In this document: in pieces, positions 4,506 to 33,817 of the stretch
How the letters are laid out: every line of letters starts with the position of its first letter
How positions within the stretch are numbered: position 1 is the stretch's first letter
From: Anaerolineae bacterium
GTDB taxonomy: Bacteria > Chloroflexota > Anaerolineae > Aggregatilineales > Phototrophicaceae
Length of the DNA stretch: 49,842 bases
Assembly (NCBI GenBank): GCA_013360465.1
Contig: JABWBO010000021.1
Span: 1 to 49,842 of the forward strand
Direction of reading: 5' to 3'
Translations under genes and position numbers: made by a program
The notes under the pieces: generated by a model
Database searches by the model: none
Seen by the model: the letters and a program-made list of their open reading frames with translations, nothing else
What the model was told of the DNA's origin: nothing

Positions 4506-4520
4506 GATGTGGTCCGTTCT

Positions 4521-6760: not shown

Positions 6761-6823
6761 AGCTGACTCCGCGAGGTGACAATCGGCAAAGGCTGTAATT
6801 CGTTTTCGTCAGAGAAGCGACAT

Positions 6824-6837
6824 TAGGATAGATTATA
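6824..6837 (-). promoter_or_regulatory. Possible aguA promoter -10 with a GntR half-site
   Basis: On the minus strand the spacer shared by aguA and the divergent PL22 gene reads TATAAT (6837-6832), then C, then TATCCTA (6830-6824). TATAAT is a perfect -10 box, but no good -35 sits at the right distance. TATCCTA is exactly half of the palindrome at 8759-8772, so the same regulator may touch this site. Weak evidence, because only a half-site is present. Confidence 0.3.
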
Positions 6838-6878
6838 GTCAGCAGACTCTGAATTCCGCACATCCCAGAGAGGTTCAT

Positions 6879-15343: not shown

Positions 15344-17116
15344 ATGAAGATCATGCTGCTGTTTCCGCCCAATTGGACGCCCAGTATGCCACATCTGGCG
15401 CTGCCTACGCTGACGGCATATCTACGCGGGAACGGGATCGAGGTCATTCAGCGCGATCTCAACGCCACGACTTTTGACGAAATCCTCACGTCCGGGTACA
15501 TACGGAAAAGCCTGACGCGGCTCAGAGAGTATTACGGGCAGGACGCCAGCCGTCACCCAAAAGAACGACGCGGTCTGCCCCGAAGGGAACACGTCCTGTG
15601 GGCGCTGTCGGAGGGCGAACGGCTGGCGCGCGAGGTGGAAGCCGCCAAGCAGATCATCCGCAGCGAGCAGTTCTTCGATGGCGCGACCAGCCTGCCCGCC
15701 TTTGAGACGGTCATCCAGGCGCTTGAAGTCGCGTCGATGCCGTTCTTCCCGGCTTCGCTCACCCTGCAAACCTATATCTCAGCTTACCCCACCGACAGCA
15801 GCGCGGCGCTCTTGCAGGCGGTCCGGGACGAACACCACAACATCTTCCTGGAGCTTTTCCGCGAGGGCATCCTGCGGGAAATCGCCCGCGAACACCCGGA
15901 CATCGTCGGAATCTCCATCCCGTCCATGCCGCAGATGCTTGCCGGCATGACTCTGGCATACCTGGTGAAGGATGCCGGTCTCGACTGTCACGTCACGGTC
16001 GGCGGACCGCACATCAGTATGCTGCGCGATGAACTCGTCAAGGTCCCGGCAATCTTCAGTTTGTTCGACAGCGCGGTGGTGTTCGACGGCGAAGTGCCGC
16101 TGCTCCGGCTGGCGGAAGCGCTGAGCGGCGATGGCGATCTCTCCACCGTGCCGAATCTCGTCTATCGAGATGGCGATGCGATCCGCGTGACCGAGCGTAA
16201 AGTTCCAGAGAAGATCAGCGATCTACCCATGCCTGATTTCGACGGGCTGCCGCTGGACCGCTATCTCGCGCCCTATCTCGCGCTGCCCCTGCTGACCGCG
16301 CGCGGCTGCTATTTCGGCAAGTGCGCTTTCTGCAACGTCGGCTATGGCGAAGCGGAATCCTTCAGCCAGCTGCGCGTTGAGCAGCTGGTCGAACAGATGA
16401 CGGCGCTGCGCAGTCGCTATGGCGTCCGTCATATCTTCTTTTCCGATGAAGCGATCTCGCCGAAGAACCTGCGCGCGCTGCCGCTCGCCCTGGAGACGAT
16501 CGGCGCGCCGTTCCACTGGGGTGGATGCGCCCGCTTCGAGCGGGTGATCACGCGCGATCTGCTGGAATCGATGCAGCGCGGCGGCTGTCGGATGATCCTG
16601 TATGGTCTGGAAAGCGCATCCGAAGCCATCATGGACCGGATGCTCAAAGGGACCCGCGCCGGGGACATGAGCCGCATCCTGATCGATGGCAGCGAAGCCG
16701 GAATCTGGAATCACACCTTTTTCTTCTTCGGCTTCCCTGGCGAGACCCTGGAAGATGCTCAAGCGACGGTGAACTTTCTGTACCAGCACAAACCGCACAT
16801 CCATTCTGCGGCGATGGGGACCTTCCTGATGGAACGTTACTCGCCTGCCCACCAGTTTCCTCAGCGTTTTGGCGTCTCGAAGATCGTCGAAGAGCCGGAG
16901 AAAGACCTGGCGATATACTTCGATTATGAGGTCGCCCAGGGGATGAATGCCGCGTTCGCTGAAACGATAGCCGATCGCTTCATGGAGACGCTGCCCGATA
17001 AGCCTTTTCCGCAGTTTTACGCCAACGACGTGTACCGCTTCCTGTACGCCTCTTATCTGAGCGAAAAGGGCAAGCCGATGGTCCCCTGGCTCATCCCGGA
17101 ACCCCAGCAAGCATAG
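15344..17116 (+). CDS. B12-binding-type radical SAM protein
   Basis: The 590-residue protein has the layout of class B radical SAM enzymes. The N-terminal region (about 1-280) starts MKIMLLFPPNWTPSMPHLAL and contains the Rossmann-like strands DIVGISIPSM and CHVTVGGPH of a cobalamin-binding domain. The radical SAM barrel follows at about 310-520. Its cluster motif is CYFGKCAFC (C322, C327, C330), a CX4CX2C spacing rather than the usual CX3CX2C. The GGPH motif, YGLESASEAIMDRMLKGT and FFFGFPGETLEDA are typical of the family. The DxHxxG lower-ligand motif was not seen, as is common in this class. Such enzymes methylate or rearrange unreactive carbons. Nothing links it to a known pathway. It is 12 bases upstream of the HAD-like gene, which suggests a shared task. 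Confidence 0.8.
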   Translation: MKIMLLFPPNWTPSMPHLALPTLTAYLRGNGIEVIQRDLNATTFDEILTSGYIRKSLTRLREYYGQDASRHPKERRGLPRREHVLWALSEGERLAREVEAAKQIIRSEQFFDGATSLPAFETVIQALEVASMPFFPASLTLQTYISAYPTDSSAALLQAVRDEHHNIFLELFREGILREIAREHPDIVGISIPSMPQMLAGMTLAYLVKDAGLDCHVTVGGPHISMLRDELVKVPAIFSLFDSAVVFDGEVPLLRLAEALSGDGDLSTVPNLVYRDGDAIRVTERKVPEKISDLPMPDFDGLPLDRYLAPYLALPLLTARGCYFGKCAFCNVGYGEAESFSQLRVEQLVEQMTALRSRYGVRHIFFSDEAISPKNLRALPLALETIGAPFHWGGCARFERVITRDLLESMQRGGCRMILYGLESASEAIMDRMLKGTRAGDMSRILIDGSEAGIWNHTFFFFGFPGETLEDAQATVNFLYQHKPHIHSAAMGTFLMERYSPAHQFPQRFGVSKIVEEPEKDLAIYFDYEVAQGMNAAFAETIADRFMETLPDKPFPQFYANDVYRFLYASYLSEKGKPMVPWLIPEPQQA

Positions 17117-17128: not shown

Positions 17129-18382
17129 ATGATCCTCGATACTCTGACCCAGGAACTGGACTCGTACCGCGACACGACGCCGGACGGCGCGCTGGCGCAG
17201 ACCCACGCGCCCCTGATCTGCTTCGACACGCAGGAGCCGTTTCTTCCGCTGGCAGCCGGCTGCACCGTATTTCGGTCGGCGGCGAAGTCGCCTTCCTCGA
17301 AGTTCGCCATCGATCCCGCCGACGGCACTGCGATTGAGTATGCCGTCTGGTGGGACTGGGAGATTCAGCATCTCTACGAACTGGAGCATATCTGGGTCTA
17401 TCTGAACGCAGGCGGCGATATCGTCCGGGTGGAAGCGTCGGCGCATGGCGCGAAGTATTCGCTCCAGCGTCGTGACGGCGCGCTGCCCCTATCCGATGAC
17501 GGACGCCCCCTCGTGTACTCCGAACCCGGTAAACATGGTTTTGCCGCCGATGCCGAAGCGTTCAGCGGATACGTCGATCACATCATCGCCAACTGCCGCG
17601 CGAATGCCGGGGAAGAGGGCATCCACACCCGCAATCTCTTCGGCGCTGCCGCCTTTGGCGATCCGAGTCCGTTCGAGCACCGCCTCGCCAGACGCTATAT
17701 GCAGCGGCTCGCCTTCACCCCATCCTTCGCCTTCAACCGCGTCTTCGATCTGCGCAGCGTGCCGATCCTACCCTGGGCGCGGCTGAAAGCCTGGATTCCC
17801 CGACGCATTAATGCCTGGCGAGAACATCTGCCGCAGATCGTCCCGCATATCCCGCTGGTCTGCCTCGATTCTGGCGATACGCTGATGGATGAGGGGACAC
17901 AGCGCTATGTTGATGAGGTCGTCGTCGCCGCCGAATTCATCCCCGGCGCGCTGGACCTGCTGGCTGGACTGCACGCCGCCGGCTATCCGCTGGCGCTGGT
18001 GGTCGATGGTTCGGTCGCCGGGACGCGGAATTTCTACCAGCAGGTCCCCGGTTTGTGGGAAGCCTTTGCCGCCCTTGCCGTTTCCGAACAGGTCGGGGTC
18101 GATAAGCCCGACCCGCGTATGTTCCGCGCGGCGCTGGATGCCATGAACATCCCCGCTGAGGACTACCCCCGTGTGGTCATGTTCGGAAACAATCTCTCGC
18201 GCGACATCAAAGGCGCGAACGCGCTTGGGCTGATCAGCGTGTGGCTGAGCTGGTCCACGCGCCGCACCCACACCCCAGCCGACGACAGCGAAGTTCCAGC
18301 CTACCACATCGCCTTGCCCCTGGAACTCCTCGACCTGCTGGAACGAATCGAGCTGGGGCTGCCGGCTACGTCTCAAACGTGA
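17129..18382 (+). CDS. Two-domain protein: unknown N-terminal domain plus HAD-like hydrolase
   Basis: The first 200 or so residues form a domain I cannot name. It has a conserved-looking block, WWDWEIQHLYELEHIWVY, then RVEASAHGAKY and SEPGKHGF, suggesting a beta-sandwich with buried Trp, Glu and His residues. The C-terminal part (about 240-400) is HAD-like. Motif I reads LDSGDTL (D247, with G at the usual second Asp and D250 after it), motif II is in LVVDGS, the motif III Lys is in VDKPDP and motif IV is FGNNLSRDIKGA. The altered motif I may change or abolish phosphatase activity. It follows the radical SAM gene by 12 bases with a GGAG site. Its end overlaps the convergent gene at 18366 by 17 bases. 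Confidence 0.65.
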   Translation: MILDTLTQELDSYRDTTPDGALAQTHAPLICFDTQEPFLPLAAGCTVFRSAAKSPSSKFAIDPADGTAIEYAVWWDWEIQHLYELEHIWVYLNAGGDIVRVEASAHGAKYSLQRRDGALPLSDDGRPLVYSEPGKHGFAADAEAFSGYVDHIIANCRANAGEEGIHTRNLFGAAAFGDPSPFEHRLARRYMQRLAFTPSFAFNRVFDLRSVPILPWARLKAWIPRRINAWREHLPQIVPHIPLVCLDSGDTLMDEGTQRYVDEVVVAAEFIPGALDLLAGLHAAGYPLALVVDGSVAGTRNFYQQVPGLWEAFAALAVSEQVGVDKPDPRMFRAALDAMNIPAEDYPRVVMFGNNLSRDIKGANALGLISVWLSWSTRRTHTPADDSEVPAYHIALPLELLDLLERIELGLPATSQT

Positions 18383-19820
18383 GCGTCAAAGGTTCGCGCA
18401 GCTCCATCTGAACACGCAGCAGCTCGCCCGCCGGCGAGACCGCAAACGAGGTCTCGCCCCCGGCGAGATGGATCGTCACGCCCGGAAGCCGCCACTGCTC
18501 GGCGTGAAGCTGCTCCGCTGCCGCCTGTGGAGCATAGAGGTCGATGACGCAGGCGGCAGGCGAGTGACTGTACAGCCGTATCTGCCTGGGCTGCGCCACG
18601 CCCTGGATCAGGCTCTCGCTTCGGATGCGCATCCACCCTACTGCGCCGTCAGGGGTCAGCCAATGGGCGGTGGCAGGGTGAAACTGATTGGTGCGCCACG
18701 AGTTCAGGTGATCCGCCTCTGCGCCCAGCATCAGCGAGGATGACAGCCATGCCGTCGCCGTGCGCTGCGGCTCGATGGTGCGTTCCAGCAGACGCTCGCC
18801 CTGAAACTGACTCAGATGAGGCAGCACATCCTGCGGCGGGCGCGACCCCACCAGCGCGACCAGCGGCATGAAGAAGAAATCCGCCGCATGTTCAAAGGGT
18901 TGGGAAGGGTCTGGGAGTGGGGCGCTGCCAGGGAGCGTGACCGCGCCGATCCACAAGCCCAGCAGCGCGAGATACGCTGTCATGTCCATCCCGTAGCTGC
19001 GATCATACGGTCCGCACATGTTGCGCATCCCGGCGTGATAGAACTGCGCCAGGTCGCGCCAGAGTTCCGCTTCCATCGAAGCGCCATGCTCCCGGTACAG
19101 CGGGGTGGAGCCATATTCGCGCCACAGCGCCAGCGCATAGAAATCCACGCCGTAGTAGGTCGGAGAGTTGTATTCGTTGAAGGTCTTGAAGCGGCTGAAA
19201 AGTCGGTGGATTTCTTCCGCCTGGCTGAGCGCATAGGCGCGCCATGTCTCATTTGCGAAGGCGATGCCCGCGTAGTCCAGCAGGAAAGCGCTCATCAGCG
19301 AGATGTTCGTGTATTCCGCAGCCACTTTTCGCGCGAACGCCCCCTCCGCAGCCAGGAGGATCGCACGGCGCATCCGTTCCTGAAGGGCGGGCGGGATTAG
19401 GGTATCGAATTCTCTGAGGAGGATGATGAACACGCTGCCGATGAACTCGCGCCAGTTGGGATCATAATCCTGCCAGATGACCGCGTTCTGCGCCGGCGGA
19501 TGAGGTTCGCCGACATAGCGATAGAACGTGCCGTGATACACTACCCCTGGCTCGTCAAACTGGTAATGGAGTACTGCCTCCAGGGTGGAAAGGGCGCGCG
19601 CCACATCCGTTTCCTGCCGGCGCAGCAGCAGTCCGGCTGCGTACCACACCGAATCGCGGATGATGTGCGGAACCGGGCGCGTGCCGAGCTTGCTGCGGGT
19701 TTCCCGGTCGTTCGGCGCAAGCAGCAGCTGCGCGTCGCTGCTCCAATAGCCATCCGACCAGGCGATGCTCGCTTCGAACCAGGCGCGGTGAGAAGCATCC
19801 AGGTACTCTATCGTCTTCAT
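18366..19820 (-). CDS. Unknown helical-toroid-like protein, candidate glycan-active enzyme
   Basis: I do not recognise this 484-residue protein as a named family. It has no signal peptide. The first 330 residues are helix-rich with regularly spaced aromatic and acidic residues (YDPNWREFIGSVFIILL, YTNISLMSAFLLDYAG, EYNSPTYYGVDFYALALW, MCGPYDRSYGMDMTAYL), in the style of (alpha/alpha) toroid lyases and hydrolases. The last 130 residues look like beta-strands. The Tyr, Asn, Asp and Arg clusters in SPTYYGVD and GPYDRSYGMD are candidate active-site residues. Its ATG overlaps the stop of the GH106-like gene (ATGA), with GAGGAAAC upstream, so the two should be made together. A role on rhamnose- or uronate-containing oligomers is inferred from context only. 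Confidence 0.6.
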   Translation of the reverse strand: MKTIEYLDASHRAWFEASIAWSDGYWSSDAQLLLAPNDRETRSKLGTRPVPHIIRDSVWYAAGLLLRRQETDVARALSTLEAVLHYQFDEPGVVYHGTFYRYVGEPHPPAQNAVIWQDYDPNWREFIGSVFIILLREFDTLIPPALQERMRRAILLAAEGAFARKVAAEYTNISLMSAFLLDYAGIAFANETWRAYALSQAEEIHRLFSRFKTFNEYNSPTYYGVDFYALALWREYGSTPLYREHGASMEAELWRDLAQFYHAGMRNMCGPYDRSYGMDMTAYLALLGLWIGAVTLPGSAPLPDPSQPFEHAADFFFMPLVALVGSRPPQDVLPHLSQFQGERLLERTIEPQRTATAWLSSSLMLGAEADHLNSWRTNQFHPATAHWLTPDGAVGWMRIRSESLIQGVAQPRQIRLYSHSPAACVIDLYAPQAAAEQLHAEQWRLPGVTIHLAGGETSFAVSPAGELLRVQMELREPLTLTFET

Positions 19821-21727
19821 CTCGTTTCCTCAGTGACCGTCACGCGAAATGCATGAGCATCGAGCATCATCTGACCGTCGAAGCGCTGGGCGCTGCCGTC
19901 GTTCGGGTCGATCAGCCAGGTGTCTGCGAGTTCCAGCGAAAACCTGAGCGGCTGGTCCCCCTCGTTAAAGAGCATCGTCCAGGTCAAGCCGGCTTTGCGC
20001 ACCTGGCGCACGCGCAGCCCGTGCGCCTCGATGGCAGCGAAGGGCGAAGCCGGCAGCAGCGCGCGAAGCGCAGCGGCGCACGCCTGGGTATCATCAGTCC
20101 AGCGCACAACCGGGACGCCCGCCGAAAACTGGCTGAGCAGCGCCTCAGCCCAGACAGGAATCTCCCCGTCGACAATCAGCGCCGTATAGCGCTGATCGGC
20201 GATGCGCAGCGCGCCGCCGTCCACCTGGCAGCGCGACAGATCGTCGACATCCAGGTAGTTAAAGTCGATCTGGCGCTGCAAGCAGGCTTTCGCCGCCCGC
20301 CAGGGCAGCTGGTGGTGTTCGCCCAGAATGGCGACATGACAGACCAACTGGCTGTCGGTGTTCAGCCAGCAGAGGCGGCTGCAGGCGCGCGCAAATTCTG
20401 GGAATTCCCGGTCCCACCAGGGGCTGTGTGGACCCACATCAGGAGGGCGCTCATCCCGGCGCGGTCCGCGCACTGAGTAGTAGAAAGCGTGCGGGATCAG
20501 CAGGTTGCACCCGCGCACCAGCAGCCAGTTCGCCAGCCAGCGCATCTCTTCGAAAGTCATCTGGTGACCATAGGCGCCGCAGAACTCGTTGGCATTGCGC
20601 CGCCGCCCGCCGTGCAGCATCATCGACGCCGCCGCTTTCGCCTGTGTAGACTGACGCCCTTCGAGCGCTGAGGGCTTATCCATTTCGATCTGCCGCCAGA
20701 CGATGTCCTGTCCGGGGATGTGGAAGTAGCGCAGATGACGGGTCGCATCGGGTTCGGCGGGGTGTCCGGTCAGCGCGATCTGATGTCTTTCGCACCAGTC
20801 AAAGAGCTGCCGATAGTAGGTTTGCTCGAAGCGGTGTTCGACCGCGCGTTCGTAGTCCTGACGCACAGCCTGGGGGCAGTCGTCCTCCCACAGCGCCGGC
20901 AGATAGGGTGCAAAGTCGTAGCCCAGAAACGCATGGAGATGAGTCAGGATGCCGCGCGTTGCGGGCAGCGCGCCGGCTTCGCGCGGTCGCCCCAGCAGCA
21001 TCGGTTCATCAGTGAAGATGGCTCGAATCGTCGAACCGAAGAACGCGCCAAATTCCGCGTGGAACCGGTCGTAGACCAGGCGAATGAAGCAGGCGACGGC
21101 ATCCGGGTTCAGCAGGTCTGAGGCAGGCGGGCTGGTTTCCGGCGATTCGCCGCTCGCATCGCGCACCTCTTCATCCAGATAATGCAGCCCTCGAATGACC
21201 GAGTCAACCGGACGTTCCACCACCGCGTAACGTTTCCCCTTGTAGGGGGTCTCGACCAACAGGGTCTGCGAGTCGTTCAGCGCCAGTTCACCCCGATCAT
21301 CGACGGCGATACCGGAGACGCTGACGTTCGGCATCAGACTGTCCAGTTCGATACGAACCATGCCTCGGCACTGGAATGCCGGGTCGTGCGCGACGACCTG
21401 CCCGGCGGAAGACCCGCTTGGATACATGCCCTCGTCGTACAGGATCACCCACATCTGCCGACGGCGGGCTTCCTGAAGGGCAAAGGCGATCTTACTGAGA
21501 AGCATCTGGCTCATCCAACCGAGATGCGGCGGTAAGCCCAGACGGGGGTGCAGCACAAAGGACTGCACCCCATGCTGCTGGAACGCCTCCATCTGGCGCG
21601 CGATCTTGCTTTCTTCAAGATCATCGTTCCAGAACCAGAACGGCGTCAGCGAATACTCTGATGGCGGAGCCTGCCAATCGTGCGGCAGCGAAAGACCGCC
21701 GGCGGGGGAGTGCGTCGTGCTGGTCAC
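19817..21727 (-). CDS. GH106-like alpha-L-rhamnosidase
   Basis: The 636-residue protein begins like GH106-type enzymes: SLTPFWFWNDDLEESKIARQ, then HGVQSFVLHPRLGLP, the TIM-barrel start in which a long fragment lists substrate-facing residues. Further barrel motifs are LYDEGMYPSG, RAIFTDEP (a probable acidic catalytic residue) and ALTGHPAEPD. Characterised GH106 enzymes remove alpha-L-rhamnose from pectic side chains and are about 1000 residues, so this is a short form lacking the accessory beta domains. There is no signal peptide. The only in-frame start is a GTG at 21727 with poor ribosome-site spacing. It lies 39 bases after gntR and overlaps the next gene by four bases. Related barrel families with the same opening are an alternative. 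Confidence 0.6.
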   Translation of the reverse strand: MTSTTHSPAGGLSLPHDWQAPPSEYSLTPFWFWNDDLEESKIARQMEAFQQHGVQSFVLHPRLGLPPHLGWMSQMLLSKIAFALQEARRRQMWVILYDEGMYPSGSSAGQVVAHDPAFQCRGMVRIELDSLMPNVSVSGIAVDDRGELALNDSQTLLVETPYKGKRYAVVERPVDSVIRGLHYLDEEVRDASGESPETSPPASDLLNPDAVACFIRLVYDRFHAEFGAFFGSTIRAIFTDEPMLLGRPREAGALPATRGILTHLHAFLGYDFAPYLPALWEDDCPQAVRQDYERAVEHRFEQTYYRQLFDWCERHQIALTGHPAEPDATRHLRYFHIPGQDIVWRQIEMDKPSALEGRQSTQAKAAASMMLHGGRRRNANEFCGAYGHQMTFEEMRWLANWLLVRGCNLLIPHAFYYSVRGPRRDERPPDVGPHSPWWDREFPEFARACSRLCWLNTDSQLVCHVAILGEHHQLPWRAAKACLQRQIDFNYLDVDDLSRCQVDGGALRIADQRYTALIVDGEIPVWAEALLSQFSAGVPVVRWTDDTQACAAALRALLPASPFAAIEAHGLRVRQVRKAGLTWTMLFNEGDQPLRFSLELADTWLIDPNDGSAQRFDGQMMLDAHAFRVTVTEETR

Positions 21728-21766: not shown

Positions 21767-22471
21767 TCACGGGGTTTCGTCGGGAGAAGCACGGAGCAGC
21801 CCTTCGGATTCCAGGTGAGAAATATAGCTTTGCAGAGCGCTGCGGTTATGGGCGCGTATCACCGCCTCAACCCTGTCGGCGTCGCGCGTGCGCATCGCCT
21901 CTAGGAGCTGATGGTGTTCGACCTGCGCCGTGTTCTGGGTGGAGATGTCTTTCAGGTAGTGCGCTCGCAGCCGATGCCAGTGATCGAAGGTCTTCTGCAT
22001 CATCTTGTGAACCAGACGCATCCTGGCGCAGTCGCAGATGAACAGATGCAGCGCTTTGTTCTTCTCTGACCATGCTTCGAGGTCGTCGATCAGCCCATCC
22101 ATTTCATCGATCATGGCTTCCAGGGTTTTCAGATCATCCTCAGTGGCGATGACGCATGCTTTGCGGCTGGAGATCGTCTCTTGAGATTCGAGCAGCGCAA
22201 AGACCTCGAAGATCAGCGTCGCATCGATGTCCGTGATACGCGCGCCCGTATACGGCTCCGTCGTGATGAATCCGTCGGCTTCAAGCTGCTGGATGGCTTC
22301 GCGAATGGGAATCTGGCTGACGTTCAATCGTGCAGCCAGCTCATCGATGACAAAGCGTGACCCAGGGACGTACACGCCTCTGATGATCTCTCGCTTGAGG
22401 AAGTCGTAGATCATCTCTCGTTTACTGCGGTATCGAGGCAGCATAATAGGACTGCTTATTAACTTGAACAT
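21767..22471 (-). CDS. GntR-family regulator, FCD (FadR) type
   Basis: This 234-residue DNA-binding protein has an N-terminal winged helix (MIYDFLKREIIRGVYVPGSRF, ELAARLNVSQIPIREAIQQL, then EADGFI) and an all-helical FCD ligand domain (about 90-220). The His residues in LHLFICDCAR and VEHHQLLEAM and the Asp in the preceding helix are candidate metal ligands. FCD regulators such as UxuR and ExuR respond to uronates or their aldonate products, so mannonate, fructuronate or KDG are reasonable effectors. The ATG at 22471 has AGGA eight bases upstream inside the palindrome at 22479-22495. A later ATG at 22444 is possible. It heads a unit with the GH106-like and unknown genes and probably regulates itself and importer system 1. 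Confidence 0.88.
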   Translation of the reverse strand: MFKLISSPIMLPRYRSKREMIYDFLKREIIRGVYVPGSRFVIDELAARLNVSQIPIREAIQQLEADGFITTEPYTGARITDIDATLIFEVFALLESQETISSRKACVIATEDDLKTLEAMIDEMDGLIDDLEAWSEKNKALHLFICDCARMRLVHKMMQKTFDHWHRLRAHYLKDISTQNTAQVEHHQLLEAMRTRDADRVEAVIRAHNRSALQSYISHLESEGLLRASPDETP

Positions 22472-22478
22472 CACTATA

Positions 22479-22542: not shown

Positions 22543-23589
22543 TCAGGAGCGCTGTTCGCGCTGCCTCTCGACGCCCTGCCACAGCCCGTAGAGATACATC
22601 ACCGCCAGGGCGCGGTCATACAGCCCGTAGCCGGTGCGTCCCGTTTCGCCCCAGATCGCCCGCCCGTGATCGGGGCGCAGGGGTCCCGTGTAGCCGATCT
22701 CGACCAGCGCGCGCATGACAGCCGGCAGGTTGACGTGCGTCGGCTGTGTGTGAGCAATCTCGCGAAAAGACTGCTCCCCGGTCAATTCGACATTGCGCAG
22801 GTGGACGAAATGAATCCGACCCGCGAACTGATGGACCATGCTCACCAGATCACAGCCCGCCAGCGTGCCGAGCGACCCCGTACAGAATGTCAAGCCGTTG
22901 TGGGGGCTTTCCACCACATCAAGGATGCGCTGAATCGTCGGCGCATCGCGTACGATGCGCGGCAAGCCGAAGATCGACCAGGGCGGATCATCGGGATGAA
23001 TCGCCAGATAGACGCCTGATTCCTCGGCGACGGGGACGACGCGCCGCAGGAAGTAAGCGAGATTCTCGAACAGCGCAGCCTCGTCAATCGCCTTGTACTC
23101 GTCAAGGACGACACGCAGCTCGTCTCCGGTGAACCCGCGCGCCCACGCCACCCGCATTTCCAGCCCGCGCCGCAGATCGTAAGCCTGCGCCGCCTGATGC
23201 TCGTAGGCGGTGACATACGATCCGTCGGCGAGTTCAGACTTCATGTCGGTACGCATCCAGTCGAAGACGGGCATGAAGTTGTAGCACAGCACGGGAATGC
23301 CGGCGCGCCCCATGTTGCGAATGCTCTCGCAGAAGATGTCGATCAGCGCGTCGCGTTCGGGCGATCCCTTCTTGATCGCTTCGCCGACGCGAATGCTCTC
23401 GATCACGTCAAGGCTGAAGCCGTGTGCATTCACCTTCTGCCGGAGCGAAGCGAAATCCGCCTCGGTCCACACATCGTATTCCGTCTTCTCCTCAATCGTG
23501 CCGACGATCCCGCGCACCACCGAAATCTGGGCGATATCCTGCAAACGCACGGCGTCGCCATCGCCAAACCAGCGCATGGTCATCTTCAT
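22543..23589 (-). CDS. uxuA: Mannonate dehydratase
   Basis: The 348-residue enzyme dehydrates D-mannonate to 2-keto-3-deoxygluconate in glucuronate catabolism. The TIM-barrel metal site is complete: the His in LAIHPDDPPW, the Cys in LTFCTGSLG, the His in HFVHLRNV and the Asp in LRPDHGR, as in the Cys-containing UxuA family (Mn or Fe). MRWFG near the N terminus is also characteristic. A longer open frame exists upstream, but the ATG at 23589 has AAAGGAA six bases before it and gives the normal length. It is the last gene of the long minus-strand catabolic unit, 28 bases after the SDR gene. The gntR promoter follows. Confidence 0.95.
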   Translation of the reverse strand: MKMTMRWFGDGDAVRLQDIAQISVVRGIVGTIEEKTEYDVWTEADFASLRQKVNAHGFSLDVIESIRVGEAIKKGSPERDALIDIFCESIRNMGRAGIPVLCYNFMPVFDWMRTDMKSELADGSYVTAYEHQAAQAYDLRRGLEMRVAWARGFTGDELRVVLDEYKAIDEAALFENLAYFLRRVVPVAEESGVYLAIHPDDPPWSIFGLPRIVRDAPTIQRILDVVESPHNGLTFCTGSLGTLAGCDLVSMVHQFAGRIHFVHLRNVELTGEQSFREIAHTQPTHVNLPAVMRALVEIGYTGPLRPDHGRAIWGETGRTGYGLYDRALAVMYLYGLWQGVERQREQRS

Positions 23590-23617
23590 GAGTGTTTCCT
23601 TTGGATGGGGAACCGGT

Positions 23618-24442
23618 CTAGACGCCGCCAAAGACGCTGAAACCGCCATCGATGGGGACGACGATGCCGGTGACGAAGCGCGCCGCGTCGCTCGCCAGCC
23701 ACACCAGCGTGCCGACGAGGTCATCCGGTTCACCGAAGCGCCGCATCGGGGTGGCGTTGATGATGGCGTTTCCGCGCGGCGTCAGTTCGCCCGTCTCCTT
23801 GTCGATCAGCAGAAAGCGGTTCTGTTCGCCCAGGTAGAAACCGGGCGCGATGGCGTTCACCCGGATGTGCGGGCTGTGTTCCTGTGCCATATGAACCGCC
23901 AGCCATCCGGTGAAGTTGTTGAGCGCGGCTTTTGCGGCGCTGTAGGCGATCACCCGCGTGAGGATTTTGTACGCCGCCATTGATGAGACGTTGATGATCG
24001 ACCCGCTCTGTGCCTGCACCATCCGCTTACCGAACACCTGCGAGGTCAGCACGGCGCTGGTATAGTTGAGGTCAAAAACGCCCTGCATCGCTTCCGGCAT
24101 TAGGTCAAAGAAGGTACGCTGCCCCGGCACGGCGGTCGCTTCCGGCTTATTGCCGCCCGCGCCGTTGACCAGGATATCCACTTTGCCGTAGGTATCGATC
24201 ACCTGCTGCGCGGCATGGTCCAGCGCCGCCTGATCCAGCACATCGGCGCTGATGCCGAGCGCCGTCGCGCCGGACTGCCGAAGCGCGGCGACGGTGTGGT
24301 CGATTTTTGCCGGATCGCGCGCGATCACGACGACCGATGCGCCGGCATCCGCCAGTCCATGACACATCGCCGCGCCGAGTACGCCGGTCCCGCCGGTGAC
24401 GACGGCGACTTTTCCACTCAAATTAAAGGTGCTGGTCGGCAT
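23618..24442 (-). CDS. uxuB: SDR-type D-mannonate oxidoreductase (fructuronate reductase)
   Basis: This 274-residue short-chain dehydrogenase has the NAD(P) loop TGGTGVLG, NGAGG in place of NNAG, a serine in INVSSMAAY and the YSAAK catalytic pair. The stretches FFDLMPEAMQGVFDLNYTS and LTPRGNAIINATPMRRFG are characteristic of the YjmF/UxuB group of Bacillus, which interconverts fructuronate and mannonate. E. coli UxuB belongs to a different family. Together with UxuA next to it this supplies the two lower steps of the glucuronate route. AGGGA precedes the ATG. It follows the cupin gene by 17 bases. A related sugar-acid specificity is possible. Confidence 0.82.
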   Translation of the reverse strand: MPTSTFNLSGKVAVVTGGTGVLGAAMCHGLADAGASVVVIARDPAKIDHTVAALRQSGATALGISADVLDQAALDHAAQQVIDTYGKVDILVNGAGGNKPEATAVPGQRTFFDLMPEAMQGVFDLNYTSAVLTSQVFGKRMVQAQSGSIINVSSMAAYKILTRVIAYSAAKAALNNFTGWLAVHMAQEHSPHIRVNAIAPGFYLGEQNRFLLIDKETGELTPRGNAIINATPMRRFGEPDDLVGTLVWLASDAARFVTGIVVPIDGGFSVFGGV

Positions 24443-24459: not shown

Positions 24460-24816
24460 CTAAGAGCGTTCGCCAGATAAGAATTCCTCGCGGATCGGAT
24501 GGAAGGTATCGACCAGGCGCACATACGCGCTCAACGTCTGGATCGAATGTGGGATATTAGACGGGACGACTATCAGATCACCCGCGCTGAGGTCATAAAC
24601 GTCACCGTCCAGGAAGAAGCGCACATTCCCCGCAGCAACATACGTGATCTGCTCGTGTGGATGACTGTGCGGCGGGTCGGGTTCCGCCGCTGGACCATCC
24701 GTCAGATCAAGGACGACAGTCATCAGGTGTTCGCCATGCGCGAGATAGCGTTCGCGTCCCGGCGCAATCCCTTTGCGGTGTGGTTGCGGGTGCGGCGTCA
24801 CAGACATGAACCTCAT
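24460..24816 (-). CDS. kdgF: KdgF-like cupin, unsaturated uronate linearisation
   Basis: The 118-residue single-domain cupin has motif 1 HSHPHEQITYVAAG and motif 2 DLIVVPSNIPHSI, giving the His, His, Gln/Glu and His metal ligands. The ending VDTFHPIREEFL corresponds to the VDxFxPxREDF ending of KdgF proteins. KdgF speeds ring opening of 4,5-unsaturated uronate to 5-keto-4-deoxyuronate, the substrate of KduI. Position between kduD and the SDR gene supports this. Starts at 24816 and 24807 are both possible, and the second has GAGG immediately upstream. General sugar-binding cupins look similar, so the name depends partly on context. Confidence 0.78.
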   Translation of the reverse strand: MRFMSVTPHPQPHRKGIAPGRERYLAHGEHLMTVVLDLTDGPAAEPDPPHSHPHEQITYVAAGNVRFFLDGDVYDLSAGDLIVVPSNIPHSIQTLSAYVRLVDTFHPIREEFLSGERS

Positions 24817-24846: not shown

Positions 24847-25617
24847 TTAACGCGCCAGCCAGCCCCCGTCTACCGGGATCGTCGCCCCGTGCAGGTAATC
24901 GGAGGCAGATGAGGCGAGAAACACCGCCGCTCCCTGCAAGTCCTGTGGGGTTCCCCACCGACCCGCCGGGATGCGCGCCAGTATCGCCGCGCTCCGCTGG
25001 GCATCGGCGCGCAGCGCGGCGGTATTGTCCGTCGCCATGTAGCCGGGCGCAATCGCGTTCACGTTGATGCCGAGCGCAGCCCATTCGTTCGCCAGCGCCC
25101 GCGTGATCCCCATGATGGCGCTCTTTGCTGCCGTGTACGACGGCACGAAGACGCCGCCCTGAAAGGACAGCATCGACGCCACATTGATGATCTTGCCGGA
25201 GTGCCGCTTCACCATCGAGCGCGCCGCCGCCTGCGCCAGGAAGAATGCCGCTTTCAGGTTGATTTGCAGCACGGCATCCCAGTCCTCTTCGCTGAATTCG
25301 AGCGCAGGCGTGCGCCGGATGATCCCGGCGTTGTTGAGCAGGATATCGACCTCGCCCAGGTTCGTCTCAACCTGTGTGATGATCGCCGCCAGGTCCTGCG
25401 GTGTCGCCGTCTGAAGATCGGCAGAAACTTGCAGGAAGCGGCGTCCTGCCGCCTGCACCAGGGCGCACGTCTCGCCGCAGTCCGGCGCGCGATCCAGCCC
25501 GGCGATGTCTGCTCCGGCTTCCGCCAGACCGACCGCCATCGCCTGCCCGAGTCCGCGACTTGCCCCGGTGACGAGGGCGATCCTGCCCTCGAGTCGAAAC
25601 GCATCAAGGATCGTCAT
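24847..25617 (-). CDS. kduD: 2-deoxy-D-gluconate 3-dehydrogenase (2,5-diketo-3-deoxygluconate reductase)
   Basis: The roughly 256-residue SDR has the nucleotide loop TGASRGLG, NNAG in LLNNAGIIRR, the serine in INVASMLSFQGG and the YTAAK pair. FQGGVFVPSYTAAKSAIMG and APGYMATDNTAALRAD are hallmarks of KduD. It reduces 3-deoxy-D-glycero-2,5-hexodiulosonate to 2-keto-3-deoxygluconate, the last step before kinase. The ATG at 25617 is preferred over that at 25623 because GAGG is then eight bases away. The stop of kduI lies ten bases upstream. It is cytoplasmic and of normal length. Confidence 0.95.
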   Translation of the reverse strand: MTILDAFRLEGRIALVTGASRGLGQAMAVGLAEAGADIAGLDRAPDCGETCALVQAAGRRFLQVSADLQTATPQDLAAIITQVETNLGEVDILLNNAGIIRRTPALEFSEEDWDAVLQINLKAAFFLAQAAARSMVKRHSGKIINVASMLSFQGGVFVPSYTAAKSAIMGITRALANEWAALGINVNAIAPGYMATDNTAALRADAQRSAAILARIPAGRWGTPQDLQGAAVFLASSASDYLHGATIPVDGGWLAR

Positions 25618-25627
25618 CGTCATCGCC

Positions 25628-26461
25628 TCAGTACAGCGTCGTCATCGGCACGGCGTCCATGTCGCTGAACGTCTGATTTTCGCCTGCCATCGCCCAGATG
25701 AAGGCGTAGTTTCCCGTCCCCATCCCAGCGTGAATCGACCAGCTCGGTGAAATTGCCGCCTGCTCATTGCGAATGACCAGGTGGCGCGTCTCGCTCGGTT
25801 CGCCCATCAGGTGAAACACGACGTTGTCGCCGGTGATATTGAAGTAGAAGTACACCTCCATGCGCCGCGCATGGAGATGAGCGGGCATGGTATTCCACAG
25901 GTTGTTCGGCTCCAGCATGGTCAGCCCCATGACGAGCTGGCAGCTCTTCACGCCGTCGGGATGGATGTACTTGTTGATGGTGCGCTCGTTCGAGTTGGCG
26001 ATGCTGCCCAGATGCACAGGCGAGGCGCTGCTGATCGGGATGTGCGTCGTCGGGTAGGCGGCGTGCGCGGGCGCACTGGTGAAGTAGAAATGAGCAGGCT
26101 GGTCGGCGCTGTCGCTGGCGAACAACACCTCGCGCGCGCCCATGCCCACATACAGCCCGTCAACCCGGTTCATGGCGTAGGATGTGCCATCCACCATGAT
26201 CGTCCCCGCGCCGCCCACGTTGATGATGCCGATCTCGCGGCGTTGAAGGAAGAAATCTGCGCCCAGGTCCTTCGGCGAAGCGGTCAGCGCCAGCGGCGAT
26301 GCGGCTGGCGCGGCTCCGCCGATGATCATCCGGTCGATATGGCTGTAGGTCAGTGTGATCTCGCCGGGGACGAACAGCGTGGGAATCAGGAATTGTTCGC
26401 GCAGCTGCGCGGTGGTGAACATCCTGACTTCATCGGGGTGAAACGGATAGCGCATTTCCAT
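25628..26461 (-). CDS. kduI: 5-keto-4-deoxyuronate isomerase
   Basis: The 277-residue cupin isomerase converts 5-keto-4-deoxyuronate to 2,5-diketo-3-deoxygluconate. The zinc ligands are visible: H195, H197, E202 (MPAHLHARRMEVYFYF) and H244 (WSIHAGMG), one residue from the E. coli numbering. YVGMG, NKYIHPDGVKSCQLVMG and the C-terminal SDMD region are also conserved. The ATG at 26461 gives the family length, and a longer open frame upstream was not used. GGGGAA precedes it. The gene lies 16 bases after ogl and ten before kduD. Confidence 0.96.
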   Translation of the reverse strand: MEMRYPFHPDEVRMFTTAQLREQFLIPTLFVPGEITLTYSHIDRMIIGGAAPAASPLALTASPKDLGADFFLQRREIGIINVGGAGTIMVDGTSYAMNRVDGLYVGMGAREVLFASDSADQPAHFYFTSAPAHAAYPTTHIPISSASPVHLGSIANSNERTINKYIHPDGVKSCQLVMGLTMLEPNNLWNTMPAHLHARRMEVYFYFNITGDNVVFHLMGEPSETRHLVIRNEQAAISPSWSIHAGMGTGNYAFIWAMAGENQTFSDMDAVPMTTLY

Positions 26462-26477
26462 AATGGGTTCCCCTGTC

Positions 26478-27659
26478 CTAAAGTTCCAGCAGGTAGAGCT
26501 GAACGCGCCCCCCGTGATCGGAGGCGTAGAGAATCCGGCTGCCATCCCAATCCCAGGTCGGGTGACAATGACTGCTTTGGGTGTGCCATGACGTGCCGTG
26601 CGCGCACAGCGTTTGATGCGCCGCCTTGTCGCCGGAAATATCGATCAGCAGCAGATGATCGACATCATCGGCGACCAGCACCGTGCTGTCCGGGTTGGCA
26701 TGATAATGATTGCAGTAGTACGGCAGATCGATCTTCCGAACAAGCCTGCCGTCTCGATCCATCAAGCCGACGAAGGGGATCATCGCGTTTTCGTTGATGG
26801 CGACCTCCGTCACGACCGCCTGGGTGCGATGCGAGGTGATCGTGCCGTCGTGACCAGGTCCGCGATTATCGAAGAAAACGTGACCATCCTGCGTCCAGAA
26901 CTCGTGCCCGATCGCGTCGTGTTCCTGCTGACGGAAACAGGGACGAACTTCATGCGAGACGAAATCGAGGAACCAGATGCGCTGTGTGACCAGATTCCAG
27001 GGACCTTCGTGGCAGAACGTCCCCAAGGTCGGATCGACAGGCGAAAACTGGAAATGTCCGACCTGATGCGTATCCTTGAACACGTCGAACCAGCCGGAGC
27101 CGTCGATGTACGCCAGCGTGATGCGTCCGTCCTTGATCTCGTAGAACCGTTCCTTGAACCCCGCGTAGTTCGCTCCGTGATAATGAATTGGCGACGGCGA
27201 AGCCTCGTTGCGGCAGAAGGCGACGTAAGCCCGGTTGGGGGCAATCGATGGGACGCTCGCCATCGCATAAGCGCCGCGCTCCTCATAGACGACCGTCGTC
27301 TGCCCGGTTTCGGGGCGCAGCACCTTGACCTGACTGCCGCTGCTGTAGGCGATCAAATCCCCTTCAGGCGTCTTGGTTGCAGCATGCGGCGAACTCACCA
27401 CATCGTCGGAAAGCTGCTCGATTTCGCCCGTGTCCAGGTTCATGCGAAAGAGGTTGTAGTCAGGGTCTTCGTGCGGCGCGACATCTTTGCCGGAAGCGCG
27501 ATCCGACTGGAAGATGATCTCGTTTTTGCCGCGCACGAACGAATTTTCAGTGAAGTACATGTGTACGTTGTTGCCGGTGGAAGTCAGACGCTTGATCGTT
27601 CGCCCGGTCATTGGGTCGGTGAACGAGCTGATCTCCGACGCCCATGTCTTGCCCGCCAT
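26478..27659 (-). CDS. ogl: Oligogalacturonate lyase (PL22), copy 2
   Basis: The 393-residue seven-bladed propeller is close to characterised oligogalacturonate lyases, which convert digalacturonate and unsaturated dimers to monomers. Candidate active residues are R227 (TQRIW), H252 (GHEFW), H320 in NHYH and the Mn-binding Q361, H364 and H366 (WHTQSSHCHPTW). HEGPWNL is conserved with copy 1. The ATG at 27659 has AAAGGA eight bases upstream inside the end of the heparinase-like gene and gives the usual length. There is no signal peptide. Placed between the lyase gene and kduI, it supplies the monomer for KdgF and KduI. Confidence 0.92.
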   Translation of the reverse strand: MAGKTWASEISSFTDPMTGRTIKRLTSTGNNVHMYFTENSFVRGKNEIIFQSDRASGKDVAPHEDPDYNLFRMNLDTGEIEQLSDDVVSSPHAATKTPEGDLIAYSSGSQVKVLRPETGQTTVVYEERGAYAMASVPSIAPNRAYVAFCRNEASPSPIHYHGANYAGFKERFYEIKDGRITLAYIDGSGWFDVFKDTHQVGHFQFSPVDPTLGTFCHEGPWNLVTQRIWFLDFVSHEVRPCFRQQEHDAIGHEFWTQDGHVFFDNRGPGHDGTITSHRTQAVVTEVAINENAMIPFVGLMDRDGRLVRKIDLPYYCNHYHANPDSTVLVADDVDHLLLIDISGDKAAHQTLCAHGTSWHTQSSHCHPTWDWDGSRILYASDHGGRVQLYLLEL

Positions 27660-27663
27660 ATCG

Positions 27664-29517
27664 TCAATCCTTTGATGCAAGCGGCGTGAGGGTTAAGCTG
27701 AATTCTGTCCCTGTAACGCGCGTGATGAGCCGTTTGAGGACGCCGTCACGTTCATTTTCGCGGCATTCCCGCTCCAGCGTTTCCAGTGAGAACTGCGCCC
27801 CTACCGCCCTGAGCAGGATCGCCGAGTGTTCGCCCGTGATGGTCACTGTATCCCCGGCGATTCTGACATCGTGCCATGTCACGAAGCACTCGTCGATGGG
27901 CAAAGGTTCCCCGGCGAACACGAATGTGTCGGTCAGTTGGGCGACTCCGGTGTTCGCGTCGAGGCTGAGCGTGCGCTGTGCCCGCGTCAGTTGGGGGAGA
28001 TCATAGGCGGTGTGAAAATCGACCACGACGATCTTCCGTCCGTCGCGCTCACCATGCTCGATGATGGTCCCGAAGAACTGCCGCGTCCCGCCAAACTCGC
28101 GTCCGTGCTGCTGCAAATGCCCACCGATGCGCGGGATGTTGTGCAGCGAGGCGTTGGTGAAGGGGTTTTCGTAGCGGTGCTGGCGGAAATAATGCTTGCT
28201 GTATTTGCCGCGTCCGGCATCGGGGATCAGGCTTTCACCGTCGATGTGGTAGACGAAGCTGCCGACATCGACATGGCTGTGATGCCCGTCATTATGTCCG
28301 ACCGTGATCGCCAGCACGACGGGTTTGGTTTGCGCTTCGCCCACCAGCTTGACGACGCCCACCGTCGGCAAAAGGTAGTCGTGCAGCGGCGGCGCTTCGC
28401 AGTCCTTGCCGTCCCACCAGACGATCTGGCGCAGCATGATCGGCAGTTTGGCGATGGAATAGCTGTGTTCGTCGGGGCGGCTGCTGCCGCCGATCAAAGC
28501 GCGCAGCTCGCTCACGCCGGTGCGTTCAGCGATACGCTGCACAATGCCCGCCGGAAGCTGCACGGTATCGGGCGTGTCGCCGAAATTCAGGTACATTGGC
28601 GGTTTGAGCGCCATCCCGACCGGATAATAGGCGATGGCTTTCATGCGCTCGCTCGCCAGCAGATCGTATTCTCCGCCGCTGATCTCGCGCAGCAGTTCGG
28701 CGACGGTGACATAGTACATCAAGCCGTATGCCCAGTAGCCGACGCCCTCAATGCTGCCGCCATCCTCCTCGAATGCCGTGTTGATGTAGGTATCGAAGCC
28801 TTCCAGCACCATCGACAGCGCTTCGGTCAGCGTTTGCAGGTCTTTTTCCAGCCGCAGGAACGCCAAGCCGATGCTGCCGTTGCATACCCCATTCCAGTTG
28901 AGTTCGCCCTTGAACCACCAGTGATCCCGTCCATACGCCAGATAGGGCTGGAAGATGTGCCGTTCGACTTCCTGCCGCACCCGTTGGTAGACCTCCGGCG
29001 CGAGATCATCCGCCAGCAGGTAGACGGTTTCGGCAAGGATCGCCCCGGTTTCGGCGGCGAAGAGATCGATGCTGTCCGGCTGGCGCGTGAGCGACGTGTG
29101 CGCGCCGAGCGGTTCGGCGCGGATGATCGGCGGGGGGACATCCCAGTAATCGGGTCCCTGTTCCTCGTGCGCCGGGACGACCCACGACGTTTCCTCGCAG
29201 ATCGCCCAGAGCAAGTCTTGCACCGGATCGATCATCGAGCGGTCGCCCATGATGGTTTCGACCAGCGCGCGGGTCAGCATGGCGCGCCGGCGAAAATAGG
29301 GGTTCTGATAGCCGGGGCGTTCGCCGGTGCGCTCAAATTCGCGGTAGCTGGAATAGCTGAGCATCGGAATATCGTGAACGTCCGGCACGACCTGGCGCAT
29401 GACCGCCAGCAGATGTGGTGCCGCCGCCGCCTGACGAATTTGCTCGCGCAGGTCGGCGACGGGCGCGGGCGAACGCAGCCAGCGTTTCAGTTGTGCGGAC
29501 GATGGGCGGCTGGACAT
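27664..29517 (-). CDS. Heparinase II/III-like polysaccharide lyase
   Basis: The 617-residue protein combines an N-terminal (alpha/alpha) toroid (about 1-370) and a beta-sandwich (380-617), as in heparinase II/III-type lyases. NWNGVCNGSIGLAFL (207-221), DGGSIEGVGYWAYG with Y261, and HNDGHHSHVDVGSFVYHIDG (408-427) are the expected active-site segments. Tyr and His in these positions drive beta-elimination next to uronic acids. There is no signal peptide, unusual for the fold and consistent with attack on imported oligomers. The substrate is not readable. It might be glucuronate or galacturonate oligomers. It starts three bases after the importer ATPase and ends four before ogl, so it is part of the same transcript. 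Confidence 0.82.
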   Translation of the reverse strand: MSSRPSSAQLKRWLRSPAPVADLREQIRQAAAAPHLLAVMRQVVPDVHDIPMLSYSSYREFERTGERPGYQNPYFRRRAMLTRALVETIMGDRSMIDPVQDLLWAICEETSWVVPAHEEQGPDYWDVPPPIIRAEPLGAHTSLTRQPDSIDLFAAETGAILAETVYLLADDLAPEVYQRVRQEVERHIFQPYLAYGRDHWWFKGELNWNGVCNGSIGLAFLRLEKDLQTLTEALSMVLEGFDTYINTAFEEDGGSIEGVGYWAYGLMYYVTVAELLREISGGEYDLLASERMKAIAYYPVGMALKPPMYLNFGDTPDTVQLPAGIVQRIAERTGVSELRALIGGSSRPDEHSYSIAKLPIMLRQIVWWDGKDCEAPPLHDYLLPTVGVVKLVGEAQTKPVVLAITVGHNDGHHSHVDVGSFVYHIDGESLIPDAGRGKYSKHYFRQHRYENPFTNASLHNIPRIGGHLQQHGREFGGTRQFFGTIIEHGERDGRKIVVVDFHTAYDLPQLTRAQRTLSLDANTGVAQLTDTFVFAGEPLPIDECFVTWHDVRIAGDTVTITGEHSAILLRAVGAQFSLETLERECRENERDGVLKRLITRVTGTEFSLTLTPLASKD

Positions 29518-29520: not shown

Positions 29521-30540
29521 CTAGTGAACCCCTGTAAGAGTCAGCTCATCGGCGAAGTGACAGGCTGCACCGTGCCCGTCACGCTCGCGCCACGCCGGGA
29601 CCTGCTGCCTGCAAATGTCCTGGGCATAGCGGCAGCGGGTGTGGAAAACACAGCCGGTCGGCGGCTTGGCGGGATTGGGCACATCCCCGGAAAGGACGAT
29701 TCGTTCCCGCTTGAGGTCCGGGTTGGTCGAAGGCACGGCAGAGAGCAGCGCCTCGGTATACGGGTGAAGCGGCTGGCGATAGAGCCTGCTGGATTCCGCC
29801 AGCTCCATGATTTTGCCGAGATACATCACGGCGACGCGGCTGCTGATGTGCTGGACCACCGACAGATCATGAGCGATGAACAGGTAGGTCAGCCCGAATT
29901 CCTGCTGCAGGTCTTGCAGCAGATTGACCACCTGCGCCTGAACTGACACGTCGAGCGCCGATACCGGCTCGTCGCACACGATCAGGCTCGGACGCAGCGC
30001 CAGCGCGCGGGCGATGCCGATGCGCTGGCGCTGACCGCCGCTGAAGGCATTGGGATAGCGATTCATGTGTTCGGGGCGCAAACCGACTTTTCGCAGCAGT
30101 CCCGCTACCTCTTCTTTGAACTTCGTCGGCGTTTTGCCTTCGCGGATCACGAGCGGCTCACTCACAATGTCCAACACCGTCATACGCGGGTTGAGCGACG
30201 AATAGGGGTCTTGAAAGATCATCTGGATTTCGTGGCGAAACGATCTCAGATCATGGTGACTCAACTGCGCGAAATCGACGGGCGCTCCCCCCGCAGAATC
30301 GGCATGATACAGTACTTCGCCCGAGGTCGGCTGGTAGGCGCGCACAATACAGCGTCCGGCTGTTGTCTTGCCACAGCCGCTCTCGCCGACCAGTCCGAGC
30401 GTTTCGCCGCGCCGCACCGCGAAGCTGATGCCATCGACGGCGCGCACATAACCAACCGTGCGTTTGAGTACGCCGCGCCGGATGGGGAAGTGCATTTTCA
30501 GATCATTGACTTCCAGCAGTGTCCGGGAATGTTCGGTCAT
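29521..30540 (-). CDS. ABC importer system 2, ATPase F (DppF-like)
   Basis: The 339-residue ATPase shows Walker [10 protein letters not shown]-loop [13 protein letters not shown], signature [10 protein letters not shown], Walker [13 protein letters not shown] and H-loop FIAHDLSVV. The C-terminal extension has cysteines in [15 protein letters not shown]. It is closely related to the subunit at 14141. AGGA lies five bases before the ATG. It is encoded six bases after its partner and immediately before the heparinase-like gene, an arrangement that ties uptake to cleavage. Confidence 0.9.
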
Positions 30541-30546
30541 CAGGTC

Positions 30547-31557: not shown

Positions 31558-31565
31558 GGCGCACC

Positions 31566-33730: not shown

Positions 33731-33770
33731 CAGCACCTCCGAAACGATATAAGTCCGATGAAAAAGAAGC

Positions 33771-33800
33771 GGATCGGAGGCAGCGTTACGCCTCCGATCC
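33771..33800 (-). promoter_or_regulatory. Intercistronic hairpin after the binding-protein gene (system 2)
   Basis: GGATCGGAGGC (33771-33781) and its exact complement (33790-33800) make an 11-bp stem with an 8-base loop. It lies in the spacer between the binding-protein gene and the DppB-like gene, the same position as the hairpins of systems 1 and 3. There is no T-tract. It probably stabilises the upstream message or limits read-through. Confidence 0.6.
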
Positions 33801-33817
33801 GGTCATCGTCTCACGGG

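Follow-up and report, generated by a model that had tools for sequence, protein, structure and literature searches.

Contig JABWBO010000021.1 of an Anaerolineae bacterium (Chloroflexota) carries, within a stretch of 49,842 nucleotides that was analysed as a whole and is called the window here, a minus-strand open reading frame (ORF) for a 484-residue protein that overlaps the end of an ORF for a candidate rhamnosidase. The 484-residue protein represents a real, widespread and unnamed family of recognisable architecture, and its predicted fold and gene context suggest that it is probably a lyase of rhamnose-uronate oligomers. The two ORFs are:

18366-19820, minus strand: family ORF, 484 aa, ATG start; candidate toroid/beta-sandwich lyase
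19817-21727, minus strand: candidate GH106-like alpha-L-rhamnosidase, 636 aa, GTG start; PF17132 match with E 1.7e-6, 27.3 bits

An initial annotation, made from the DNA letters, had described the two as coupled through an ATGA overlap, and this was borne out by the minus-strand sequence: the junction reads gaggaaacgagATGAagacg, so that the TGA stop of the 636-aa ORF and the ATG start of the 484-aa ORF share an ATGA, with a purine-rich stretch immediately 5' of it. The 484-aa protein begins MKTIEYLDASHRAWFEASIAW, where inspection by eye found no signal-like stretch. The description of the partner as GH106-like held in so far as there is a Pfam match, a weak one that stays under the curated PF17132 cut-off of 29 bits (26.3 bits in a genome search). 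Relatives of this partner were found in 45 of 400 genomes of the phylum, its own included, the three best having 42-43% identity across the matched part.

An unnamed sequence family

Searched singly, the 484-aa protein matched neither Pfam nor NCBIfam models at E 1 and no PDB sequence at E 10; none of 78 aligned members matched a Pfam family at E 0.01, and profiles of the family found three PDB sequences altogether, no lyase among them. This agrees with the initial annotation, which had recognised no family in it. No confident match to a non-carbohydrate family appeared, the helical domain described below resembling, when taken alone, terpene cyclases as much as glycosidases, and among the papers listed by literature searches none was seen to describe such a family.

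Relatives are encoded in 334 of 345 candidate stretches of named genomes, and the family loci discussed here are the best 80 fetched of these 334. The alignment used throughout (A2) has 78 rows, namely the window protein and the homologues of 77 of the 80 loci (L083, L085 and L086 were left out); the homologues align to the window protein at 34-58% identity, which makes the observation more than chance. The relatives examined come from Chloroflexota, Acidobacteriota, Verrucomicrobiota, Actinomycetota, Latescibacterota and other phyla. Of the 400 phylum genomes, 11 had a match. Besides the window's own genome these are three whose relatives align along almost the whole length at 44-47% identity, and seven whose relatives are distant and encoded by open frames of ~620-920 residues. 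Viral contigs yielded one weak relative and plasmids one Streptomyces relative, which has no listed genes around it. In a crude scan, 24 of 77 homologues had a hydrophobic stretch at their start or upstream of it, which suggests that cellular location varies across the family, although some of these hits are surely false. In three genomes, distant relatives of ~600-800 residues occur as pairs a few kb apart on one contig (L005/L012, L009/L013 and L008/L014).

Predicted fold and conserved residues

The AlphaFold2 model built from A2 (mean predicted local distance difference test score, pLDDT, 96.0; predicted template modelling score, pTM, 0.94) has helices to about residue 337 and beta strands thereafter, which bears out what the initial annotation had read from the sequence, a protein rich in helices towards its N-terminus and of beta structure towards its C-terminus. 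We divide the protein into:

18843-19820, minus strand: predicted N-terminal alpha/alpha toroid domain, ~residues 1-326 (AlphaFold2 model, and toroid matches in model residues 1-327)
18369-18842, minus strand: predicted C-terminal beta domain, ~residues 327-484 (AlphaFold2 model and a separate model of the beta domain)

When the model was searched against the PDB with Foldseek, the best matches were two-domain lyases, in keeping with the toroid-lyase-like architecture suggested at the outset: the PL35 lyases 8khv, 8khw and 9o3q came first (E ~1e-6; 10% identity), followed by dermatan sulfate epimerase, heparinase III, a PL39 alginate lyase, an exo-heparinase and a hyaluronate lyase. The first eight matches comprise seven polysaccharide lyases and the dermatan sulfate epimerase (E 1.0e-6 to 1.2e-4), an enzyme that acts on the same uronate carbon as these lyases, and the 12 matches at E <= 0.001 comprise nine lyases, one epimerase and two endoglucanases. 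We take 9o3q, titled chondroitinase, to be BcPL35. In VIA, among the 50 rows listed, only the PL35 lyases 8khw (Z 12.7, root-mean-square deviation (rmsd) 5.0, 407 residues aligned) and 8khv (Z 12.4, rmsd 5.3, 399 aligned) spanned residues 1-484; the matches confined to the toroid had Z 12.4-14.4 and included terpene cyclases. The helical domain alone is thus not diagnostic, and it is the two-domain match that makes the argument. PL27 was not among the listed Foldseek or VIA matches of the full model, which excludes nothing.

The beta domain was also modelled alone (pLDDT 94.2), from an alignment (A4) for which two of the 78 rows had too little of the domain and eight of the remaining 76 were dropped as near copies or truncated. 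In VIA the six top rows for this domain were lyases (Z 7.7 to 6.7), and such matches are consistent with, without being proof of, a lyase-type beta-sandwich.

The PL35 lyases thus share with the family model an N-terminal alpha/alpha toroid and a C-terminal beta-sheet domain, and the heparinase II/III-like lyases (PL12, PL15, PL21; PF07940/PF16889) have the same two-domain architecture. However, the family has only ~10% identity to PL35, is ~100 residues shorter, does not strictly conserve the histidine discussed below, and occurs in a rhamnose context whereas that of PL35 is glycosaminoglycan. PL35 chains were not detected among PDB sequences at E 10 by the single sequence or by the profiles, and none of the 78 members matched PF07940 or PF16889 at E <= 0.01; membership of PL35 or of heparinase II/III was rejected for want of sequence support.

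The positions identical in 78 of 78 members include D120, N122, W123, R124, N172, E216, N218, S219, P220, T221, Y222, G224, W254, G270, P271 and R274. Y276 is kept in 77, H381 in 71 and H262 in 63. The two motifs singled out by the initial annotation, SPTYYGVD (residues 219-226) and GPYDRSYGMD (residues 270-279), are present and fall among these positions. The candidate active-site features are:

19455-19457, minus strand: Asn122 of the invariant NWR motif, candidate active-site residue (78/78; kept in distant relatives)
19305-19307, minus strand: Asn172 (YTN motif), candidate carboxylate neutraliser (78/78)
19143-19166, minus strand: SPTYYGVD with Tyr222, candidate catalytic acid/base (Y222 in 78/78)
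18984-19013, minus strand: GPYDRSYGMD with invariant Arg274 (78/78) and near-invariant Tyr276 (77/78)
18678-18680, minus strand: His381 in QFHPAT, candidate beta-domain catalytic base (71/78)

The catalytic set of the PL35 lyase GAGase II is Asn192, Tyr246 and His401, and several families of the same fold keep this order, according to the part of PMC12088678 drawn on here. From the same part, positions 172/222/381 of our protein can be set against 192/246/401 in GAGase II, 240/294/424 in heparinase III and 186/239/405 in PL39, so that, as far as sequence positions can tell, N172, Y222 and H381 fit the PL35 Asn/Tyr/His triad in order and roughly in spacing. GAGase II also has a Mn2+ site (H403, D405, D421, H457) by its catalytic histidine; the residues on either side of H381 form QFHPATAHW, in which no H-x-H-x-D run occurs. 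In a 13-row alignment that includes distant relatives, N122, N172, E216, N218, P220, Y222, H262 and R274 are still invariant, and H381 is not kept in the nine distant relatives; because the histidine is lost there, the tyrosine may be the main acid/base.

We also compared the family with Chloroflexota heparinase II/III proteins by hhalign. In five of six runs N172, E216 and Y222 were aligned with the N, E and Y of the heparinase-like NNH/NW and SYH/HYQ motifs; these runs share sequences and are not independent, and the sixth (A1) leaves the three residues unaligned.

Gene context in the window and across the family

The genes from the regulator to the importer all lie upstream of the ORF pair on the same strand:

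21767-22474, minus strand: GntR/FCD regulator (Pfam)
22543-23733, minus strand: UxuA mannonate dehydratase (PF03786 E 7.9e-120; NF003027; true start probably internal)
23618-24442, minus strand: short-chain dehydrogenase (Pfam)
24460-24816, minus strand: cupin (Pfam)
24847-25623, minus strand: short-chain dehydrogenase (Pfam), candidate KduD-like, from position alone
25628-26545, minus strand: KduI, 5-dehydro-4-deoxy-D-glucuronate isomerase (NF002091 E 7.5e-131)
26478-27680, minus strand: PL22-like oligogalacturonate lyase (PF14583 E 1e-14)
27664-29517, minus strand: heparinase II/III-like protein, 617 aa (PF07940 E 2.6e-6)
29521-35806, minus strand: Opp/Dpp-type oligomer importer with ATPases, permeases and an SBP_bac_5 protein (family matches)
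32747-33736: ORF of a putative second importer permease, assigned by its place between importer genes

Elsewhere the window has GH67, GH115 and GH4 genes and two further SBP_bac_5 binding proteins, and together with the uronate enzymes and the importer these mark it as a uronate-oligomer catabolic region; the GH67/GH115 genes point to glucuronate as the uronate, and PL22 to galacturonate. The product of 27664-29517 is the sole PF07940 match in its genome, and is a divergent protein with relatives in four of 151 phylum genomes, its own counted. The GH115 and GH67 alpha-glucuronidase genes are adjacent (2322-6760, minus strand); by them lie a 442-aa ORF without a Pfam match at E 1e-5 (6735-8063) and a gene for a cytochrome c7/c554-like protein (869-2389, plus strand). 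A run of MmgE/PrpD, DUF6282, amidohydrolase, IclR and class-I glutamine amidotransferase genes occupies 39249-43888 (minus strand), within the uronate region. A B12-binding radical SAM protein is encoded near the family gene both in the window (15344-17116, plus strand) and in L016 (13717-15492, minus strand), the closest relative of the window, where a 569-aa ORF without a Pfam match lies between the radical SAM gene and the family gene.

For the 80 family loci, neighbour counts use the picked ORFs of all loci, and the lists of operon partners derive from the loci that remained after our simple gene picker had missed the family ORF in eight. The counts were RhaA in three loci, GH88 in five, GH78 in five, heparinase-like genes in four, GFO/IDH/MocA oxidoreductases in 11 and LacI in 11. 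In L021 the family gene is followed by genes for two GFO/IDH/MocA oxidoreductases, a TIM-barrel isomerase-like protein, GH3, an FGGY kinase, GH88, RhaM and RhaA; L019 and L026 likewise have GH88, an FGGY kinase and RhaA. RhaA, FGGY kinase and GH88 thus occur together in 3/80 loci, two of which also have RhaM. In L078 the family gene stands between a heparinase II/III-like gene and GH88, with GH78 farther along; this gene set is telling because an alternating rhamnose-uronate chain needs a lyase, a GH88 hydrolase and a rhamnosidase. GH88 adjoins the family gene in L071, GH78 is found in L072, L073, L076 and L093 (three of the four having heparinase-like genes too), and L048 additionally encodes a protein related to the heparinase-like protein of the window. 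A quick tree of 79 rows (77 rows from the 78-row A2, with two distant relatives added) puts these contexts in three clades, of Chloroflexota, Acidobacteriota and Actinomycetota, and the window in a fourth; one of the three clades has the rhamnose catabolism genes with GH88, one has GH88, and one has GH78, mostly accompanied by heparinase-like genes.

As background, RhaA was found in six of the 151 phylum genomes and GH88 in 19, seven of them above cut-off. At this density, and assuming mean genome sizes of 2 and 3.5 Mb, the 20 Chloroflexota loci (313,811 bases; assigned by record title, Thermomicrobiales and Kouleothrix included) would be expected to hold 0.004-0.006 RhaA and 0.012-0.021 GH88 genes; three of each were observed.

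A Pfam tally of the operon partners (101 of 116 scanned) was diffuse, the commonest family being GFO/IDH/MocA, with up to 8/101; many of the 15 partners outside the tally are proteins of ~1,100 aa, whose cluster representative is a TonB-type outer-membrane protein. GFO/IDH/MocA genes lie near the family gene in L019, L020, L021, L038, L042, L053, L059, L063, L064, L080 and L089. A protein of ~607 aa is encoded beside the family gene in five of the 80 loci (L042, 4632-6452; L046, L072, L076 and L093), and the L042 copy has no Pfam match.

A proposed reaction and its alternatives

We regard lyase chemistry as likely and a rhamnose-uronate substrate as moderately likely; the two jointly, that is, a beta-eliminating lyase acting on rhamnose-uronate oligomers, is somewhat less secure than the chemistry by itself but still probable. 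The analysis shows a conserved family, its predicted fold and its recurring gene neighbours, and from these we infer the reaction, its substrate and what the individual residues do. The enzyme would be a cytoplasmic (alpha/alpha)-toroid and beta-sandwich lyase of an unnamed sequence family, and would meet rhamnose-uronate oligomers brought in by the neighbouring oligopeptide-type importer. The uronate carboxylate would be bound by invariant polar residues, Asn172 together with Asn122, Arg124 or Arg274; Tyr222, alone or with His381, would remove H5 and protonate the leaving oxygen at C4, and the rhamnose-1,4-uronate bond would be broken to leave a 4,5-unsaturated uronate. The new ends may then be cleared by a rhamnosidase, in the window the GH106-like candidate and at other loci GH78, and outside the window also by a GH88 hydrolase, after which the unsaturated uronate would be processed by KduI and a dehydrogenase; in the window it is KduI that would take it.

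This reaction has precedents in other folds. PL27 and PL42 are L-rhamnose-alpha-1,4-D-glucuronate lyases that release rhamnose by beta-elimination, the same reaction as proposed here, as set out in the portion of PMC8377490 used. According to that portion, PL42 is a beta-propeller, unlike the family model, and PL27 has a beta-sandwich first and an (alpha/alpha)6 barrel second, the reverse of the order modelled here (PMC8377490).

A number of observations weigh against the proposed function. The Foldseek alignments are loose, with query TM-scores of 0.39-0.54 for the lyases and the epimerase and rmsd 9-14 over both domains for the lyase matches at E <= 0.001; over residues 1-327 terpene cyclases and glycosidases outscore the lyases, the toroid alone being a common arrangement. 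When the beta domain was searched alone, Foldseek placed GH63 and GH98 first and gave no match at E 0.001 or better, and in VIA its lyase matches were all below Z 8, the epimerase (6.6) and GH98 (6.5) being tied with them within 1. No histidine is invariant among the 78 members, and none of the six hhalign runs was significant (scores 18.8-22.9, P 0.11-0.32; best unrelated scores 23.4 and 21.4, from eight control clusters and a reversed control). As to context, 70 of the 80 loci have no RhaA, GH88, GH78 or heparinase-like gene in the fetched flank, the other 10 having at least one. The three RhaA loci form one clade and may therefore reflect a single event, so that the probability of at least one occurrence is the fairer figure (0.0036-0.0062 for RhaA; 0.012-0.021 for GH88), and in the genome that holds the window RhaA has no match and GH88 a single weak one. 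Relatives of the window's KduI, UxuA, PL22 and GH106-like proteins were found in 0/80 loci, and a conserved operon with any of these was rejected on that count; for the GH106-like partner the phmmer search was run at E 1e-5 on flanks many of which are shorter than 10 kb, and, as far as the fetched loci show, the ATGA coupling is not a feature of the family.

Two alternatives seem to us about equally unlikely. In the first, the chemistry would be the same with a different leaving group: as an oligosaccharide dehydratase, the protein would take water from C4 of a terminal uronate that is still saturated, making it ready for GH88/GH105. The portions of PMC12269599 and PMC8511951 drawn on describe the 'GH154' enzyme BcGDH and the ulvan enzyme P29_PDnc, respectively, as dehydratases that feed GH88/GH105 with unsaturated uronates; our family may feed these hydrolases as well, whereas BcGDH and P29_PDnc remove water rather than a sugar (PMC12269599, PMC8511951). 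The presence of GH88 near the family gene in 5/80 loci, as reported for dehydratases in those portions (PMC12269599, PMC8511951), would suit this alternative, as would the fact that a similar active site can serve both chemistries and the occurrence of the beta-D-glucuronate dehydratase 9o4u among the Foldseek matches (E 2.2e-2). However, 9o4u, which has a length of 384 residues, ranks 46th, far under the two-domain lyases and with a far weaker fold match than theirs, and the mutated residues of P29_PDnc (Asp248 and Lys303 among them) are unlike the Asn/Tyr pattern, a comparison made by description only from the part of PMC8511951 used.

In the second, the protein would be a lyase of the same fold with a different uronate glycan as its substrate, one resembling alginate, glycosaminoglycan or glucuronan, or else pectic oligogalacturonate, and the rhamnose genes would be incidental. 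The nearest folds are indeed glycosaminoglycan and alginate lyases, the window is rich in pectin and uronate genes, and 70 of the 80 loci showed no rhamnose, GH88 or heparinase-like gene; against it, rhamnose isomerase, kinase and mutarotase genes or rhamnosidases recur in separate clades, and RhaA is rare in the phylum.

Least likely of the three is a hydrolase or isomerase made of an alpha/alpha toroid (GH88/GH105-, GH76- or epimerase-like) and an accessory beta domain, which could draw on VIA toroid matches to GH8, GH76, epimerases and unsaturated glucuronyl hydrolase (Z 12.5-14.2), on the two endoglucanases at E <= 0.001 in Foldseek and on an acid pair, D120 and E216, that is invariant in 78/78, but those VIA matches end at about residue 327 where the PL35 lyases cover both domains, 0/78 members match any Pfam family, and E216 has a counterpart in the heparinase-like motifs too.

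The initial annotation had offered a rhamnosyl-uronate lyase or an unsaturated uronyl hydrolase as examples of a new glycan-active family. The former is in keeping with the toroid-lyase-like architecture, the absence of a match to any known family searched and the rhamnose/uronate link in separate clades. The hydrolase fared less well: unsaturated uronyl hydrolase activity belongs to GH88/GH105, whose model PF07470 matched 0/78 members, and GH88 is a separate gene in 5/80 loci, yet the invariance of D120 and E216 leaves it a low probability. As a first choice a GH88/GH105-type hydrolase was rejected, its VIA matches being single-domain and a Pfam match lacking.

Returning to the favoured rhamnose-uronate lyase, we speculate, with rather less than even confidence, that in a new polysaccharide lyase family the toroid/beta-sandwich fold has taken on rhamnosyl-uronate elimination, which makes three unrelated solutions with the PL42 propeller and the reversed-order fold of PL27; that this family is intracellular in Chloroflexota and exported in some other phyla; and that the distant relatives of ~600 and ~750 residues, which have the Asn/Tyr core without His381, make up a larger superfamily using the tyrosine alone. 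Relatives of this protein are encoded at 334 or more places in named genomes, and none of the 78 members tested is annotated by Pfam; the gene can be cloned, and three residues are candidates for mutation. Should the enzyme prove to be a rhamnose-uronate lyase, it would supply a missing step in the use of pectin-like, ulvan-like and bacterial exopolysaccharide fragments, and would be relevant to soil, groundwater and marine bacteria.

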